Of a stretch of 12,782 nucleotides of DNA, positions 1,776-12,782 are shown in pieces. Below the pieces are notes generated by a model, which saw only the letters and a list, made by a program, of their open reading frames with translations, searched no databases and was not told where the DNA came from. Positions within the stretch are counted from its first letter, which is position 1. Each line of letters starts with the position of its first letter. Both the position numbers and the translations under genes were made by a program. The DNA lies in the NCBI GenBank assembly GCA_000316135.1, contig JH994013.1, forward strand, positions 1,636 through 14,417, read 5' to 3'. The DNA comes from Trachipleistophora hominis (lineage: Eukaryota > Microsporidia > Pleistophoridae).

Positions 1776-1784
1776 GTCATTATC
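1776..1784. repeat. Target-site duplication, left copy (GTCATTATC)
   Basis: Nine bases identical to 1901-1909, lying directly against the A-tail end of element copy A apart from one intervening base. Confidence 0.65.
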
Positions 1785-1900
1785 ATTTTTTTTGAAGAAA
1801 CATGTTTAATTAATAATTAAACATTCACTCAACATCTATCTAGCATGCTCTTCCTAGTGCGTTATCACCTACCATGATCTGTTAAACCTTTGATCCATGG
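1785..1900 (-). mobile_element. SINE-like short dispersed element, copy A, with 9-bp target-site duplication
   Basis: This 116-bp element is flanked on both sides by GTCATTATC (1776-1784 and 1901-1909), a perfect 9-base direct repeat abutting the ends and consistent with a target-site duplication. Read on the minus strand it starts CCATGGATCAAAGG, carries a stem-loop (GGTGA TAAC GCACT, plus-strand 1856-1869), then a segment rich in TAATTAAA, and ends in TTCTTC plus eight A. It contains a perfect 11-bp palindrome around one central base (1802-1824). There are no terminal inverted repeats and no coding capacity. The A tail plus duplication suggests retroposition by a LINE-type machinery; the alternative is a small non-autonomous DNA transposon that has lost its inverted repeats. 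The parent RNA is not recognised. Confidence 0.75.
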
Positions 1901-1909
1901 GTCATTATC
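1901..1909. repeat. Target-site duplication, right copy (GTCATTATC)
   Basis: Nine bases identical to 1776-1784, starting at the base after the CCATGG end of element copy A. Confidence 0.65.
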
Positions 1910-4904: not shown

Positions 4905-5804
4905 AAACCAAAAAATAATAAAACGTATTTATTCAGCAAACTATCGTTAACGAGCTGTATGCACGGTAGATAAGTATTTTACGGGTCGATAAATTGAGTA
5001 TAAGCGAAATATCCCATCTACACAAAAATATTAGCAGTTCACGGTAAATTAAAAGGAATTAGTACTATTTGTTCTGTAGTCTTAATCTAGTTTTGTCGAC
5101 AAAAATGGAAGAAGCATGGAGAACTAGAAATTAAAGACAATCGATCATGGTTACTTCAAACGTTTGACAACGACGTATATATTTGGTAATAAATTGATGA
5201 GCCTTTAGAAAAGGACAGCATGTGTCGTATTTAATATTACAATTTATTTATAAGCTTTATATAACAATTATTTCTTGCTTGTGTTCTTTGTATAGTTATT
5301 GTGTAGAGTATTGTCTTAGTATGATATTATCATCGTGATGGAAACTTATTTTTAAATCTTGGTGGTCAAAGCATCGTATAAAAACTTACGCCATGAAATA
5401 AACTGGTAACAGCTAAAAATTAATATTGAATGATATGAGATAACGAGTCGTTAACAATCATCGTATTATGTTTTGACATATGTTTTTGTAGTACATATAA
5501 GAATAAAGTTTATTGTAACATGGATAGATGTTTAAAGGCAAATGGACGTACTGAAACATTATTTTGGGAAATTCCCAAGATATTTATGTAATATGTGATA
5601 CATTGCTAATTAATACGTTTTAGAAGAGAGCTATTGTAACATAGGCTATAAATTATGGTCCGGGTTGCTCGAGTAACTCATGTAACGATAAAATGTACGG
5701 TAATGGCTTTGATAGATGTTACAATAGGTTCTAGCAACTTTGTTTATTTTTCTTTTGAAAGTCTATTTAACTACTATTATAAAGTTTCTAGCAGTTTTTT
5801 ATAC

Positions 5805-5918
5805 TTTTTTTGAAGAAACATATTTAATTAGTTATTCAACATTCCCCCAACATCTATTTAACATGTTCTTCCTGGTGCGTTAGCACCTACCACGGCCTGG
5901 TTAGTCTTTGGTTCATGG
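5805..5918 (-). mobile_element. SINE-like short dispersed element, copy B
   Basis: This 114-bp copy aligns end to end with copy A. On the minus strand it runs from CCATGAACCAAAG through a perfect stem-loop GGTGC TAAC GCACC (plus-strand 5874-5887) to TAATTAAATATGTTTCTTC and seven A. No target-site duplication is evident. Its 5' side abuts a second fragment of the same element (5919-5940). It lies 60 bases upstream of the next gene, in opposite sense to it. Confidence 0.72.
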
Positions 5919-5978: not shown

Positions 5979-7007
5979 ATGATGGAAAAATATTTGATCA
6001 ATTACTTGAACATCACACAGGACCATGTAGATCCAACGGACTACGATAATTTTGCTGAAGAGTGTATAGAATATGTGAAAAACAATAGGAAGTACATTTC
6101 GTTAGTTTTAGAGAGCTTAAATATATTTAAAAATGATGAGTTGTTAAGCATGAGCTACAAAATACTAAGAAATACGAATGGTGACAAATCCATTGATATA
6201 TGTGATAATATATTACGAAAACACATAAAAAATACAAATTTAAGAGATTCAGTGATTCTTTACTTGTCTACAACTGATAAAAACATCTGCAAGAAATATA
6301 TTTTAAAAACATTTTATGACAAATACGAGTTTAATATTGAATACTGCTTGATTTTTAATAACAGTTGCTATCAAGAGGAATTTATAAAATTCTTGGAATT
6401 ACAACAGCCTAAATTTGTGGAAAGGAAATTATATGCCATGATTTATACTGGTCGTTTCTACAACATATGGGAATATATCGAGGATTTCGGAGCAGAAGAC
6501 AAATTTAGAAGTTCACTTGTCTGTAATTTATTTAGTTTGCTAGTTGAGAAGGTTCAACAGGCTATAGCTCAGTTTAAAGGAGAATCGTGTAAACAACAGA
6601 TTCAAACTTTCTTTAAGAACGAGTTTTATGTTGGCAGGACATTTTGTTATAGGTGCGACAAGTTTATCCTCTGTATAGACGAAAATACTTTTTTTATTGA
6701 GATGGTAGGCAAGGAACGATTGAATGTACGGTCAGCAAATAATTTTGTTGTAAATTTTCTAAAATTCATGAGGGAAGAAAAAGAAGTTATAGAATGGATA
6801 AAGAACGGTGATGAAAAAAAGATAAAAGAAACTTTGTCAAGGTATATACTCAAAGCAGAGAATTTTGAACTACAGCATTATACTGATTTAGAAACGGATG
6901 ATACCAATAGCAATAATTATGTAGAGGAAAACGAAATAGATATAAATTTTGATTACTTATTTGAAAGTAAATGTTTAAAATCACACGCCGATTGTGCTGA
7001 ACCTTAG
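5979..7007 (+). CDS. Hypothetical protein, 342 residues, probably helical
   Basis: I do not recognise this protein. An in-frame TAA two codons before the ATG (5973-5975) fixes the upstream limit; a second ATG follows at once. The first about 300 residues look mainly alpha-helical, with alternating hydrophobic and charged segments, which would suit a helical-repeat scaffold, but no repeat unit is clear. A CYRC pair (C223, C226) with a nearby C232 is the only cysteine cluster and is too little for a zinc-finger call. The tail from about 303 is acidic and Asn/Asp/Glu-rich. There is no signal peptide or clear membrane segment. Intact length, low-complexity-free sequence and codon use typical of an AT-rich genome argue that it is a real gene. 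No CCC-type motif precedes it, unlike its neighbours; instead a dispersed element lies just upstream. AATAAA occurs at 7110-7115. Confidence 0.8.
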   Translation: MMEKYLINYLNITQDHVDPTDYDNFAEECIEYVKNNRKYISLVLESLNIFKNDELLSMSYKILRNTNGDKSIDICDNILRKHIKNTNLRDSVILYLSTTDKNICKKYILKTFYDKYEFNIEYCLIFNNSCYQEEFIKFLELQQPKFVERKLYAMIYTGRFYNIWEYIEDFGAEDKFRSSLVCNLFSLLVEKVQQAIAQFKGESCKQQIQTFFKNEFYVGRTFCYRCDKFILCIDENTFFIEMVGKERLNVRSANNFVVNFLKFMREEKEVIEWIKNGDEKKIKETLSRYILKAENFELQHYTDLETDDTNSNNYVEENEIDINFDYLFESKCLKSHADCAEP

Positions 7008-8873: not shown

Positions 8874-9935
8874 GATTTCTTAAGCAAGGGCTTTTTTTGT
8901 CCTTTACAAATGATAAATTTTTAAATAATAAACTCCAATTAGAACAGTGAAACAATCACAGCGTATGATACAATTTCTTTTCAAAATCAATAAATCAAAA
9001 CTTAATGTACGTTAAACAATGAATTAAAACAAGTTTTACAGACGTGATGTGTTTCTAAGAAATTCAGGTTAAATATCTTTAATCGTAGAAAATACATTTG
9101 GATTAAAGTATACGCAGTAAAAAACTGGTTTTATGTTATAAAGTATAACAATATTTTATAAAAAACACAGTATTAAAGGTAAAATGTATGATACGATACT
9201 ATGTGAATGGACTAACGGTTAAATTTAAGTATTTTGTTTGATAGTACGGCAAATTAATTTACCCGCAAAGACCAGACAGTATGGTGCCAAAAAGCAGAGA
9301 ATAATGGGTATCAGTCATAATATGCAGCACTATTTTGTTATATCACATACATAAACGCTAATATCAATTTTAAGAAACAGAAGGAGTAACTTGCTATTTG
9401 TTCCAGATGAAACAGTTTTTATAAAACATATCCTTTAAATTAGACTGTAAGGATGTTATACCCTAGTAAAAAACATTATTGGATTTGGATATTAAATTTA
9501 ATTAAAACAAATCAGCACAACTCATTTCAATCAAAAGAAATAACATTAACGGTGACATACTGTTGATCAAAACATGTTGTTAAACATAAAGATGCGTTAT
9601 AAATTTTAGTAAATGTATTAAACATTACCATCAAACGATTTCTTGCTCAGAATTAATATAACGCATATAAGACAAGTTAGCATTACTTACCTGGTTTGCA
9701 CTTCAATTTAAAACTTTTTTGCCAACTTTCGTAATATTGTTGTTGGAACTATCATCAATACTTTTGATTGGGTATTCAGGAATTTGTTGTTGTATTGATT
9801 AGAAGAATCGGAAATTGTTAGTTAGCACGTATTTATGGTGGCGGTCACTCACAACAGTTATTTCTGCCAATTCTTATCGAAAGAACAGCACCGATAAAAA
9901 TTTGCAGGTGTCTTTCGGCCATTGGTTAAAAATTT
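8874..9935. other. AT-rich intergenic spacer (1.06 kb)
   Basis: This lies between the eIF2A start and the Pam16 3' end. I found no RNA gene, no copy of the dispersed element, no tandem repeat and no credible reading frame. Confidence 0.55.
8888..8890 (-). promoter_or_regulatory. CCC-type signal of the eIF2A gene
   Basis: The minus strand reads AAAGCCCTTGC, with the C triplet 15-17 bases before the ATG. This matches the pattern of the other CCC signals here. Confidence 0.45.
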
Positions 9936-10196
9936 TTACTGCTTATTTTCCTTCTCCGTTAGTATTCTGTATGCTGTTTCAATTTTTTCTTGTAAATAAG
10001 GTGAGCCTTTGTTTGGTATTGAGTTCCTACTGTACAGTTTTTGATAGGCTCTTTGAACATCATATCTGTTACTGTCATTTTTAACATTCAAAATATCCCG
10101 TGCCTGATTTCTATCCATAATGGAATGGTTCCAATATAATTCTAAAATTGTTTTCTTTAAAGCCGAGCAAAAAGCTCTCGTAACTTCTGTGAGCAT
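9936..10196 (-). CDS. PAM16: Pam16/Tim16-like J-like protein of the mitosomal import motor
   Basis: Pam16 (Tim16, human Magmas) is the J-like partner of Pam18 in the motor that drives proteins through the inner membrane with mtHsp70. Numbered from the start chosen here (86 residues): TRAFCSALKK (6-15) matches the family N-terminal RAFxxAL block; QARDILNV (31-38) matches the family EAxxILNV helix; and KGSPYLQEKIETAYRIL (63-79) matches the diagnostic KGGSFYLQSKVxRAxERL. The HPD triad of true J proteins is absent, as in all Pam16. In-frame ATGs at 10226 and 10220 would add ten residues. I prefer 10196 because a C-run (minus strand CACCCCTG) then sits 9-12 bases upstream, as at other genes here, and because family members have little sequence before the RAF block. 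It is much shorter than yeast Pam16 (149), having lost the linker and tail. Confidence 0.82.
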   Translation of the reverse strand: MLTEVTRAFCSALKKTILELYWNHSIMDRNQARDILNVKNDSNRYDVQRAYQKLYSRNSIPNKGSPYLQEKIETAYRILTEKENKQ

Positions 10197-10204
10197 ATTA
10201 AACA

Positions 10205-10208
10205 GGGG
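10205..10208 (-). promoter_or_regulatory. CCC-type signal that decides the Pam16 start
   Basis: The minus strand has CCCC 9-12 bases before the ATG at 10196. With the longer start at 10226 this run would fall inside the coding region, so it favours the shorter start. Confidence 0.5.
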
Positions 10209-10774
10209 TGTAAAACACATTAACATGTATTTTTAGCATTAGGCACAAGAAATAAACGGATTTTAATCAAAAACTTAAACAATCATCCTTCTCACTTCTT
10301 ATATTAAGCTGGTTCATTGGTATAAATATTTCTTGAAGAATGTTTTAAACGAAGACATTAATTATCTATGAATATTATTTGGCCTAAAATCAACTTATTT
10401 GTTAAATCTAAAAAGTTATCACATGTTATATACCAATTTATGAATATTTTCAGATCAGACCACGTTCTATAATACATTCTTATCAGTAACATTTCAATAA
10501 TCACCAAAAGTAAATACTGGATCATGTAACACATTCTATCCAAGTCGTTTGCGTAGGATTAACTTCTATAAAACAAATACCACAAAAAAATACTTTGTTA
10601 AATTAAAGAATAATAAATAATTCTGGTATTGATAACCAGCAGTTCGGTCTAAATAATCAACCAGAATCTTTTACTGTTTCATAATGTTTTATTCTAGTGT
10701 GTTATTGCCTTTTCTCGCTTAGTTGCTGGTATGAGTCACGATTGTTTGGAACAAAAAATATTCCGTGAATTAGA

Positions 10775-10892
10775 GATTGAACAAATTATTGTCTGGTGGA
10801 CATGGTCGGTCCTAACGGATCATAAGAGTGAGTTTGGTCGGATGTTGTTGTGTGAGGTAATAATTAAACTGGCATTTAGAGAAGAAAAAATA
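10775..10892 (+). mobile_element. SINE-like short dispersed element, copy C
   Basis: The plus strand reads TGAACAAA near the start, then ATGGTCGG, a stem-loop GGTCC TAAC GGATC (10808-10821; G-C, G.T wobble, T-A, C-G, C-G), GATGTTGTTG, TAATAATTAAAC and an A-rich tail GAGAAGAAAAAA. It is diverged, but the order and spacing of blocks match copies A and B. It is followed directly by copy D in the same orientation. Left boundary uncertain by several bases. Confidence 0.6.
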
Positions 10893-10895
10893 GGG

Positions 10896-10987
10896 CATGG
10901 TAGGTGCTAATGCACCGAGTAGAGTACATTAAATAGGCGTTGAATGGAATATGGGAATAATTAAATACGTCTTTCAAAAAAACAAAA
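10896..10987 (+). mobile_element. SINE-like short dispersed element, copy D (lacks the 5' part)
   Basis: The plus strand begins at CATGGTAGG and keeps the stem-loop GGTGC TAAT GCACC (10903-10916), AGGCGTTGAATGGAAT, AATAATTAAATACG and a tail of seven A. The roughly 25-30 bases that precede CATGG in copies A, B and E are missing; the tail of copy C sits there instead. This fits either 5' truncation, common in retroposition, or insertion of one copy at the head of the other. Confidence 0.62.
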
Positions 10988-11020
10988 GATATTAGAAAAA
11001 TTAATTGCAATTGTAAAAAA

Positions 11021-11174
11021 TAAAAACAAAGGCAATTATTCATAATAATAAAAAGACAAATCGCAAGATGATTGGTCAGAAGGAGAAACAAATAAAAACA
11101 AATGCAATTATTCATAATAATAAAAAGACAACTCGCAAGATGATTGGTCAGAAGGAGAAACAAATGAAAACAAA
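11021..11174. repeat. 72-bp tandem repeat, 2.1 copies
   Basis: Copies at 11021-11092 and 11093-11164 differ at only about three bases (for example g/t at 11031 versus 11103 and a/c at 11060 versus 11132). A third partial copy begins at 11165 (tgaaaacaaa). The near identity indicates recent duplication. The period is 24 codons, so frames stay open on both strands across it (plus-strand ATG at 11068, about 67 codons). No homology, start signal or sensible protein supports coding. Confidence 0.88.
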
Positions 11175-11799
11175 TTATTTCATCTTATCGCTACTATTGA
11201 TAAGTTATATGTTGTTATTTAATTTTCAGGTTCTTAAACTCGTTCAGCTGCCATTTGTAATCGATGTTTAGTGAAAATGCTTTCACCAGCCAAAAATTAA
11301 TTTTTTGATCTCCGATGAAGAACGCGAACGATGGGAAAACAGCATATTTAAGATGAAATTATGAGCAAAACAAGAATAAGTCCTATCGAGTGCATACCAA
11401 TCTAAATTCTCGTTTTATAAACGGAATAGTGCAGCTGATCCATAATAATACCGTACTCAAAACCACAGAGTTAGTTTGCAGCAATACGCTTCTAAGATTA
11501 ATTAATATTTTGATAGAGATTACTTTTTGAATATTAAATAAACAGAAAAAAAGCAAAACGAAAATGATTCATCAATTTTAAATGCAAACATATTATTTGC
11601 GCATTCTAACACGCGTTTTTTTAAAGCTATCATTTAGAAGTTATAATATTTACCAGCAATGTGTACTCTGCATTGCATATGTTATTGCGGAGTTCGTTAT
11701 GTGTAGAATACATGACCTGCTTTTAATCAAACAATGAATATTTTATTTGAGGAATCTGTGCCCACTGTATTAAGTTCGTCAATGAGATACAAAGCAATT

Positions 11800-11920
11800 C
11801 ATGAACAAACGGTCGTCAAGGTCACGGTCGGCCTCAGCGCGCCAGGAAAGCTTGTTTAGTGTGTGAAGAAATATATAGTGTTAATTAAACGGACTTTTGA
11901 ACAACAAAAAGAAATAAAAG
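11800..11920 (+). mobile_element. SINE-like short dispersed element, copy E (diverged)
   Basis: The plus strand starts CATGAACAAACGG, then CACGGTCGG, the stem-loop position GGCCT CAGC GCGCC (11830-11843), CAGGAAAGCTTGTTTAGT, GTTAATTAAAC and an A-rich tail ending AAAGAAATAAAAGG. It keeps block order with copies A and B but is GC-richer in the stem region. A weak flanking similarity (AAAGCAATT before, AAAGGTAATT after) could be a decayed target duplication. Alignment by eye. Confidence 0.5.
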
Positions 11921-12551: not shown

Positions 12552-12605
12552 CCCTATCCATGGACGACAACATGGCGCTTTAAATTTTTATTATGGCCGC
12601 TGTAA

Positions 12606-12714
12606 TTTTTTTTATTAAAAGTTGTTTTAATTATAGCCTTACATAACAACATCTAACTAAACACACTCTTCTGGTCCGCTGAGATCTATCATAGCCGCCG
12701 GCATTTGGTTTATG
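12606..12714 (-). mobile_element. SINE-like short dispersed element, copy F (diverged)
   Basis: On the minus strand it starts CATAAACCAAATG, then CTATGATAG, the stem-loop position GATCT CAGC GGACC (plus-strand 12673-12686), GATGTTGTTATGTAAGG, TATAATTAAAAC and ends TTTTAATAAAAAAAA. It shares GATGTTGTTxTGT with copy C and CAGC with copy E. It lies upstream of the Mediator gene and is read in the same direction. No clear target duplication. Confidence 0.55.
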
Positions 12715-12782
12715 AAGAAAATTAGTGCGCCATCTCGCGAAACAACTTCGCGCGCATTACCACAACAAAAGAAAGGTATGCT

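Follow-up and report, generated by a model that had tools for sequence, protein, structure and literature searches.

Six short, related blocks are dispersed over a 12,782-nt stretch of the genome of Trachipleistophora hominis, hereafter called the window, and a preliminary description took them for copies of one SINE-like retroposon. The questions raised by this locus are what kind of element the blocks represent, how they have spread, and from where such an element could arise in microsporidia, which are textbook cases of genome reduction. As to what is in print, 110 transposable-element ORFs and frameshifted non-LTR elements have been described for T. hominis (PMC3486916), and the passages of that paper that deal with non-LTR elements in T. 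hominis and N. ceranae contain nothing on short repeats, a 3′ UTR, or a relation to SINEs, the word "sine" occurring 0 times in its main text. The term SINE is absent from the searchable text of PMC4654818, PMC3749934, PMC7313128, PMC13174016, PMC12449221, PMC10542269, PMC4405373, PMC2784321, and PMC3726280, and that of PMC4202319 contains neither the singular form nor "short interspersed". For Nosema bombycis, the accessible text of PMC3614468 gives 28,669 bp of SINE (0.18%) as a class total, with no family described. This total is the only mention in the searchable literature, which comprises neither subscription papers nor supplements, and microsporidian SINEs seem hardly described there.

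Results

Six window copies from three subfamilies

Profiles built from copies collected across the genome recovered all six blocks (Table 1) on the same strands as in the preliminary description, whose claim of one dispersed family was thereby borne out. The concern that the six regions might be no more similar than shuffled sequence can be set aside, given that profile searches of the 90 loci in block-shuffled and in reversed form yielded 0 matches at E 0.01. The notion of six copies of one element needs refinement, however: the family is common to all, but its members fall into three subfamilies, A, F, and E. Likewise, copy F is a true family member, matching subfamily F, but it is not a free element, as it forms the 3′ UTR of a truncated LINE.

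Table 1. Copies of the family in the window and features associated with them
Feature	Position	Strand	Description
Copy A	~1784/1785..1900	-	Full length, subfamily A; profile E 3.5e-30; covariance model 75.7 bits
Copy A, left target-site duplication	1776..1784		GTCATTATC
Copy A, right target-site duplication	1901..1909		GTCATTATC
Copy B	5802..5918	-	Full length, subfamily A; profile E 3.2e-34; covariance model 87.8 bits
Copy C	10779..10890	+	Subfamily F; profile E 2.6e-18; covariance model 63.6 bits
Copy D	10889..10983	+	Subfamily A, 5′-truncated; profile E 5.5e-12, model positions 18-116
Copy E	~11799..11912	+	Full length, subfamily E; profile E 2.1e-29; covariance model 97.6 bits
Copy F	~12604..12715	-	Subfamily F, 3′ UTR of truncated LINE; profile E 5e-28; covariance model 96.1 bits
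LINE ORF stop codon TAA upstream of copy F	12722..12724	-	Sequence reading
LINE ORF, C-terminal end	12725..12782	-	Reads AYLSFVVVMRAKLFREMAH; cut by the end of the window/contig; similar ends in loci L036 and L005

A repeat search within the window showed copies A and B to be 82% identical over 117 nt and revealed C/F, B/D, and A/D as inverted pairs. Copy D, rightly described as 5′-shortened in that its match begins inside the model, directly abuts the tail of copy C. A covariance model built on 66 copies detected copies A, B, C, E, and F in the window at E 1.1e-13 or better and missed the truncated copy D, and an extra match at 8988-9095 (E 0.35) is at chance level. The perfect 9-bp duplication reported for copy A was confirmed: the exact GTCATTATC is present at both flanks and nowhere else in the window on either strand, and once extended, the duplication amounts to 15 bp with one mismatch. 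The duplication scores of copies B, C, D, E, and F are 5 to 7, which permuted flank pairs also reach (≥7 in 56/468), and that of copy A is the only convincing duplication among the six.

Regarding other features of the window, the first ORF encodes a CDP-alcohol transferase, whose nearest named microsporidian protein is that of Pseudoloma neurophilia (47%), and a 96-aa ORF on the minus strand (9936-10226) encodes a putative Pam16/Tim16-type J-like protein. Two tandem 72-bp units with 96% identity are situated just downstream of copy D, at 11015-11158. Copy B lies 60 bp upstream of the start codon (ATG) of a 342-aa ORF at 5979-7007, and its SINE sequence may be included in the promoter or 5′ leader of that ORF.

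Size and age of the family

In approximately 273 kb of DNA, consisting of 90 loci and the window, 162 distinct copies were found: 69 of subfamily F, 52 of E, and 41 of A. Each subfamily is about 110 nt long with a short A tail, and the elements are short, non-coding, dispersed, and multi-copy, as is expected of SINEs in the broad sense. The assembly searched comprises 5.5 Mb in 119 contigs, with the window in C75:1636-14417, and the published T. hominis assembly comprises 8.5 Mb (PMC3486916). When this genome was searched with A, F, and E, each query matched places of its own, with 32 rows for A, at least 41 for F, and 34 for E, three opposite-strand A matches being left out. The best 40 of 76 candidates were scored in the F search, and two further queries, for which the best 40 of 161 and the best 40 of 80 were scored, brought the genome totals to at least 53 F, at least 44 E, and at least 32 A copies. 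The further copies that the preliminary description had expected genome-wide therefore exist in large number.

The genome contains 75 exact occurrences of the start CCATGAACCAA, compared with one of the pattern read backwards, and this start is carried by 27/162 copies overall and by 4/77 copies not chosen by similarity; these rates translate into roughly 450 to 1,400 copies. An estimate from flank density gives 1,580. Three of six random 3.5-kb draws, two of which overlap each other, hold 0 copies (10.5 kb), and the other three, overlapping known loci, hold at least three distinct copies in the parts covered by those loci, so the draws taken together do not contradict a number of several hundred or more. 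The copy number can fairly be put at that level, and the high copy number proposed earlier holds in that sense, although the exact figure is uncertain. On average, copies differ from the consensus of their subfamily by 12.5% in A, 16.4% in F, and 14.2% in E, and the least diverged copy, a member of F, differs by 2%. The copies are mostly old, and the family now appears to be dead. A search of viral contigs with one exact pattern found 0 relatives.

Hallmarks of retroposition

The 3′ end, counted as reached when a match passes model position 100 in F and E or 110 in A, is reached by 154 of the 162 copies, and 60 of the 162 are 5′-truncated, starting beyond model position 10. A duplication score of at least 9 was obtained for 44/156 copies, compared with 9/468 permuted (mismatched) flank pairs. 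The true count is slightly below 44, because a few of the highest-scoring rows (e.g. L014, L089, and L079) reflect nested repeats or matches to the tail. Scores at this level were found in 28/90 full-length and 15/61 truncated copies, and the duplications range in length between about 9 and 16 bp. The remaining 112/156 copies have no duplication at this score, as would be expected from their age, though this is not proof. Runs of at least five A residues are present at 133/156 ends, the commonest longest run being 7. The start of the element is also sharply placed, lying -1 to +2 nt from the first C of CCATG in 24 of the 28 duplication-bounded full-length copies, a count favored by the duplication finder, which was confined to 6 nt around the profile start. 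An apparent target-site preference for T/G before AA was dropped, since duplications that extend into the A tail bias the signal.

Variable duplications, an intact 3′ end, 5′ truncation, and an A tail are what target-primed reverse transcription (TPRT) leaves in a SINE in the broad sense, and retroposition by TPRT is well supported. The duplications and A tails that the preliminary description proposed to look for in other copies were both found, and together with the 5′ truncation and the matching LINE described below, they uphold its view of a SINE-like retroposon.

Subfamily F as the 3′ UTR of a broken LINE

Matches to RVT_1 in the genome amount to nine rows. Four of the loci read, L005, L029, L036, and L043, hold a broken non-LTR element, and frameshifted non-LTR ORFs of T. 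hominis are also described in the accessible text of PMC3486916. A 117-aa piece of this LINE, which matches RVT_1 at E 2e-13, occurs at six places in the genome, and the solved structures nearest to it are R2 (3.7e-11) and then LINE-1 (2.6e-8). The 3′ region of the LINE is represented by at least 33 genome pieces of widely differing 5′ extent. Inspection by eye places after the reverse transcriptase a CCHC-like motif, about 70-75 codons, and then ...AKALREAVH-stop; the stretch following the motif, where an RLE-type (R2/R4) LINE would have its endonuclease domain, appears to leave no room for a typical C-terminal endonuclease in these truncated LINE loci, and it has no Pfam match, nor did the genome give an Exo_endo_phos match at E 0.001.

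The F element, CCATGAACC, begins about 6 nt after the stop codon of the LINE (TAA in 10, TGA in 1, and a mutated CAA in 1 of the 12 LINE-attached copies) and is followed by the A tail. When the genome was searched with the LINE end and the UTR, 30 of the 31 places matching the LINE part continued across the junction into F, with 26 of the 30 reaching query position 382 or beyond out of 402 and the one other place stopping at 247. These 31 places exclude three earlier-found pieces that end at 243-261, and an extra piece in C66 belongs to a counted place. In the fetched DNA, all 11 distinct LINE ends enter F, and another four rows stop short of it. The genome search is the fairer test, since nearly all the loci behind the 11 were fetched for their F copy. 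A SINE start lies within 30 bp of 18/33 LINE pieces among the matches listed. Copy F of the window is one of the 30 ends that cross into F (C75:14241-14415) and is in frame with the end of the LINE ORF, ...AYLSFVVVMRAKLFREMAH-stop. Subfamily F coincides in extent with the complete 3′ UTR of this broken LINE, a relation that is new here. The preliminary description had called for a LINE-type reverse transcriptase whose 3′ end matches, and for F it was found. Subfamily F accordingly has the partner LINE of a broad-sense SINE, and A and E have none among the matches listed, in which a LINE piece lies upstream of 0/44 E and 0/32 A copies and no LINE ends in an A- or E-type 3′ end.

Several loci show insertions or losses in individual elements. 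In L005, a subfamily-A copy (1501-1618) is located inside a broken LINE ORF, between stretches read by eye as IYGGK and NAHFAG, which implies that subfamily A remained mobile once that LINE copy had been inserted. The flank after the LINE A tail in L036 resembles by eye the reverse complement of a stretch of the L005 LINE ORF and suggests that one LINE was inserted here into another, the two being oppositely oriented. In L050 (~1443-1500), an F copy directly follows a short piece of LINE (query 163-216 of 290), as if the remainder of the LINE end had been deleted. Another candidate for a LINE, in C108 (L091, G000:C108:46800-52800) and one of the nine RVT_1 rows, was rejected, as its coding pieces are by eye those of a Ty3-like LTR retrotransposon; its reading frames are broken, and masked bases lie nearby.

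Relation of LINE-attached and stand-alone F copies

A tree was constructed over 108 columns from 36 rows, namely 12 LINE-attached, 20 stand-alone F, and 4 E copies, with the exclusion of five diverged rows. On this tree, LINE-attached copies are interspersed among stand-alone ones: the LINE-attached labels require 7 changes compared with a shuffled mean of 10.3, indicating some clustering, and the attached copies form one clade in 0% of 200 bootstrap trees, an arrangement that the AU test rejects (p 0.00012). The support values of the tree are low, as it has only 108 columns, and its few starred branches alone do not exclude one origin. The LINE-F junction is alike across different sub-lineages. 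Given the interleaving and the like junctions, the simplest reading is that stand-alone F copies were derived from LINE 3′ UTRs several times; they probably arose repeatedly, with a nearly fixed 5′ end.

Predicted RNA fold and searches for a SINE head

The consensus of each subfamily is predicted to fold alike, into P1, P2, and a long P3 whose end immediately precedes the A tail. P1 consists of AACC...GGTT around a GGCC-type hairpin, and P2 is GGTCC/GGACC in F, GGTGC/GCACC in A, and GGCGC/GCGCC in E. In a joint alignment, 82.3% of the cells pair, compared with 50.2% and 54.4% when the partners are slid by one. Two-sided changes affect 84 cells, compared with 52.5 in shuffles (0/500 as high); the two-sided changed pairs (14 versus 13.4) and the further pair types (38 versus 41.3) are not above the shuffles. 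Between consensus sequences, the changes are 8 double-compensated, 3 one-sided, and 2 broken for A/F and 3, 3, and 2, respectively, for F/E, and the 11 changed pairs of A/E comprise 7 double-compensated, 4 one-sided, and 0 broken, compared with 0-2 double-compensated, 1-5 one-sided, and 5-16 broken with slid partners; this counting is favorable to the fold because the structure came from the same sequences and the A register of P3 from its own fold. Within subfamilies, pairing is no better than in shuffled data, except weakly for P1b (7/500), which is expected if the source RNAs were constrained and the dead copies were not. These comparisons indicate that the three subfamilies have a common RNA fold.

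Rfam gave no match in the window or in four loci and only chance-level matches, far below gathering scores, for three isolated elements; no tRNA was found in six loci; and the best pol III A and B boxes were no better than those of a shuffled consensus. The F consensus moreover contains TTTT, which could stop pol III. No sign of a pol III promoter and a tRNA, 5S, or 7SL head, as in a classical SINE, emerged from these sequence searches, and the name SINE-like given in the preliminary description is therefore apt in the broad sense but does not extend to the promoter that defines classical SINEs. An HDV-like ribozyme had no Rfam match in the four loci and the three isolated elements; the P1 helix of such ribozymes, located at the 5′ end, has about 7 bp, and the longest helix starting in consensus nt 1-4 has 5 bp in A and F and 6 in E. 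Subfamily F differs from SIDE/RIME-type elements, which keep the 5′ end of a LINE, in that its elements extend without a break from CCATG to the tail and lie inside the 3′ UTR of the LINE, as read from truncated LINE loci. Nor does the family have the features of a MITE, since the duplication lengths vary and no terminal inverted repeats were seen by eye.

Discussion

The family very probably consists of non-autonomous, SINE-type retroposons that were spread by TPRT with the enzyme of a LINE. Its RNA of about 110 nt would be composed of the 5′ lead CCATG, the hairpins P1 and P2, the closing stem P3, and a short A tail, and the LINE whose remnants survive carries this RNA as its 3′ UTR, which starts about 6 nt downstream of the stop codon. 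The reverse transcriptase of the LINE might recognize the closing stem together with the A tail, and the enzyme would nick sites without a clear sequence preference and copy from the 3′ end, which would account for the mostly intact 3′ ends, the frequent shortening at the 5′ end, and the duplications of about 9-16 bp. Stand-alone F copies would come from LINE 3′-UTR RNA with a defined 5′ end, either released from the transcript or started at the UTR, and A and E may have been moved by the same or sister LINEs. A more specific idea, which we offer tentatively, is that the LINE 3′ UTR is a compact RNA that is freed with a precise 5′ end and copied in trans by the LINE enzyme, SINEs being born repeatedly as stable products of its decay or processing. 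The precise end could result from a 5′-to-3′ exonuclease that is halted about 6 nt short of the first stem, much as happens on exonuclease-resistant viral RNAs, or from a transcription start at that position. If this is true, SINEs could be born from their own LINE without a tRNA head or pol III promoter.

The fixed start of stand-alone F might also be explained if these copies are LINE copies on which reverse transcription halted at one favored place, for instance where a ribosome sits on the stop codon, some 6 nt upstream, or where the ORF is structured, with no separate short RNA ever formed. This seems rather unlikely: the interleaving of attached and stand-alone copies agrees with it, as do the commonness of truncation and the many positions at which LINE pieces start, but A and E have the same start and yet are never LINE-attached among the matches listed, and the stems of the UTR lie 3′ of the start, so that the enzyme would already have passed them. 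The absence of a LINE from A and E in those matches would instead fit the single capture of a pre-existing SINE as the LINE 3′ UTR, with stand-alone F forming an independent lineage with its own promoter, and LINE-SINE chimaeras are conceivable. We nevertheless regard such a capture as unlikely, because independent lineages predict one LINE-attached clade, which is rejected, and because the junction is alike in 12/12 attached copies, which speaks against many separate captures.

As for more distant classes of elements, the length, the A tail, and the duplications would suit a classical pol III SINE of tRNA, 5S, or 7SL origin whose promoter has decayed. This origin is quite improbable in view of the Rfam and tRNA searches, the A and B boxes that do not exceed the shuffled consensus, and the TTTT in F. 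Far less credible still is a MITE or another derivative of a DNA transposon, because elements that are short, multi-copy, and flanked by duplications are in this case equipped with an A tail, lack inverted repeats by eye, and have duplications of about 9 to 16 bp even on truncated copies. The fold common to the subfamilies might suggest fixed structured RNA genes or regulatory elements that are not mobile, but the duplications, the truncated copies, the insertion inside a LINE, and the identity with the LINE 3′ UTR make this extremely improbable, and the copies decay without keeping their pairs.

The SINEs of stringent-type LINEs have only a LINE-like tail, their transcription being supplied by a tRNA-type head, whereas the T. 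hominis family has no recognizable separate head. The protein of a stringent-type LINE recognizes the RNA of its own 3′ tail, according to the accessible text of PMC4176376, and such a recognition may take place here as well. EhSINE1/EhLINE1 of Entamoeba histolytica, as presented in the accessible part of PMC2996970, is similar in being a SINE of a protist parasite with duplications and a 3′ end in common with a LINE of which no intact copy is known; EhSINE1 is, however, mostly 500-600 bp long with about 70 bp common to the LINE, whereas the whole 110 nt of F is the LINE 3′ UTR. The accessible parts of PMC2996970 and PMC4035085 describe further parallels in trypanosomatids, in which RIME (with ingi) and NARTc (with L1Tc) are short, non-autonomous, and common with the LINE over their whole length, and the SIDERs are numerous and degenerate. 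These trypanosomatid elements differ in being truncated or internally deleted versions with the LINE 5′ signature Pr77, which includes an HDV-like ribozyme (PMC2996970, PMC4035085), whereas F corresponds to the 3′ UTR only, and no HDV-like ribozyme was found in it.

Hundreds of copies may also have a bearing on the 34 T. hominis-specific motifs upstream of genes that are taken as regulatory in the accessible text of PMC3486916, some of which may be pieces of this SINE. T. hominis can be grown in cell culture (PMC3486916). The SINE-type family described here thus comprises a short retroposon that is exactly the 3′ UTR of its LINE, with a nearly fixed start and a probable repeated emergence. It makes the birth of a SINE, and the need for a pol III head, directly testable with RNA of the parasite, and it reveals a source from which short parasites of parasites can arise.
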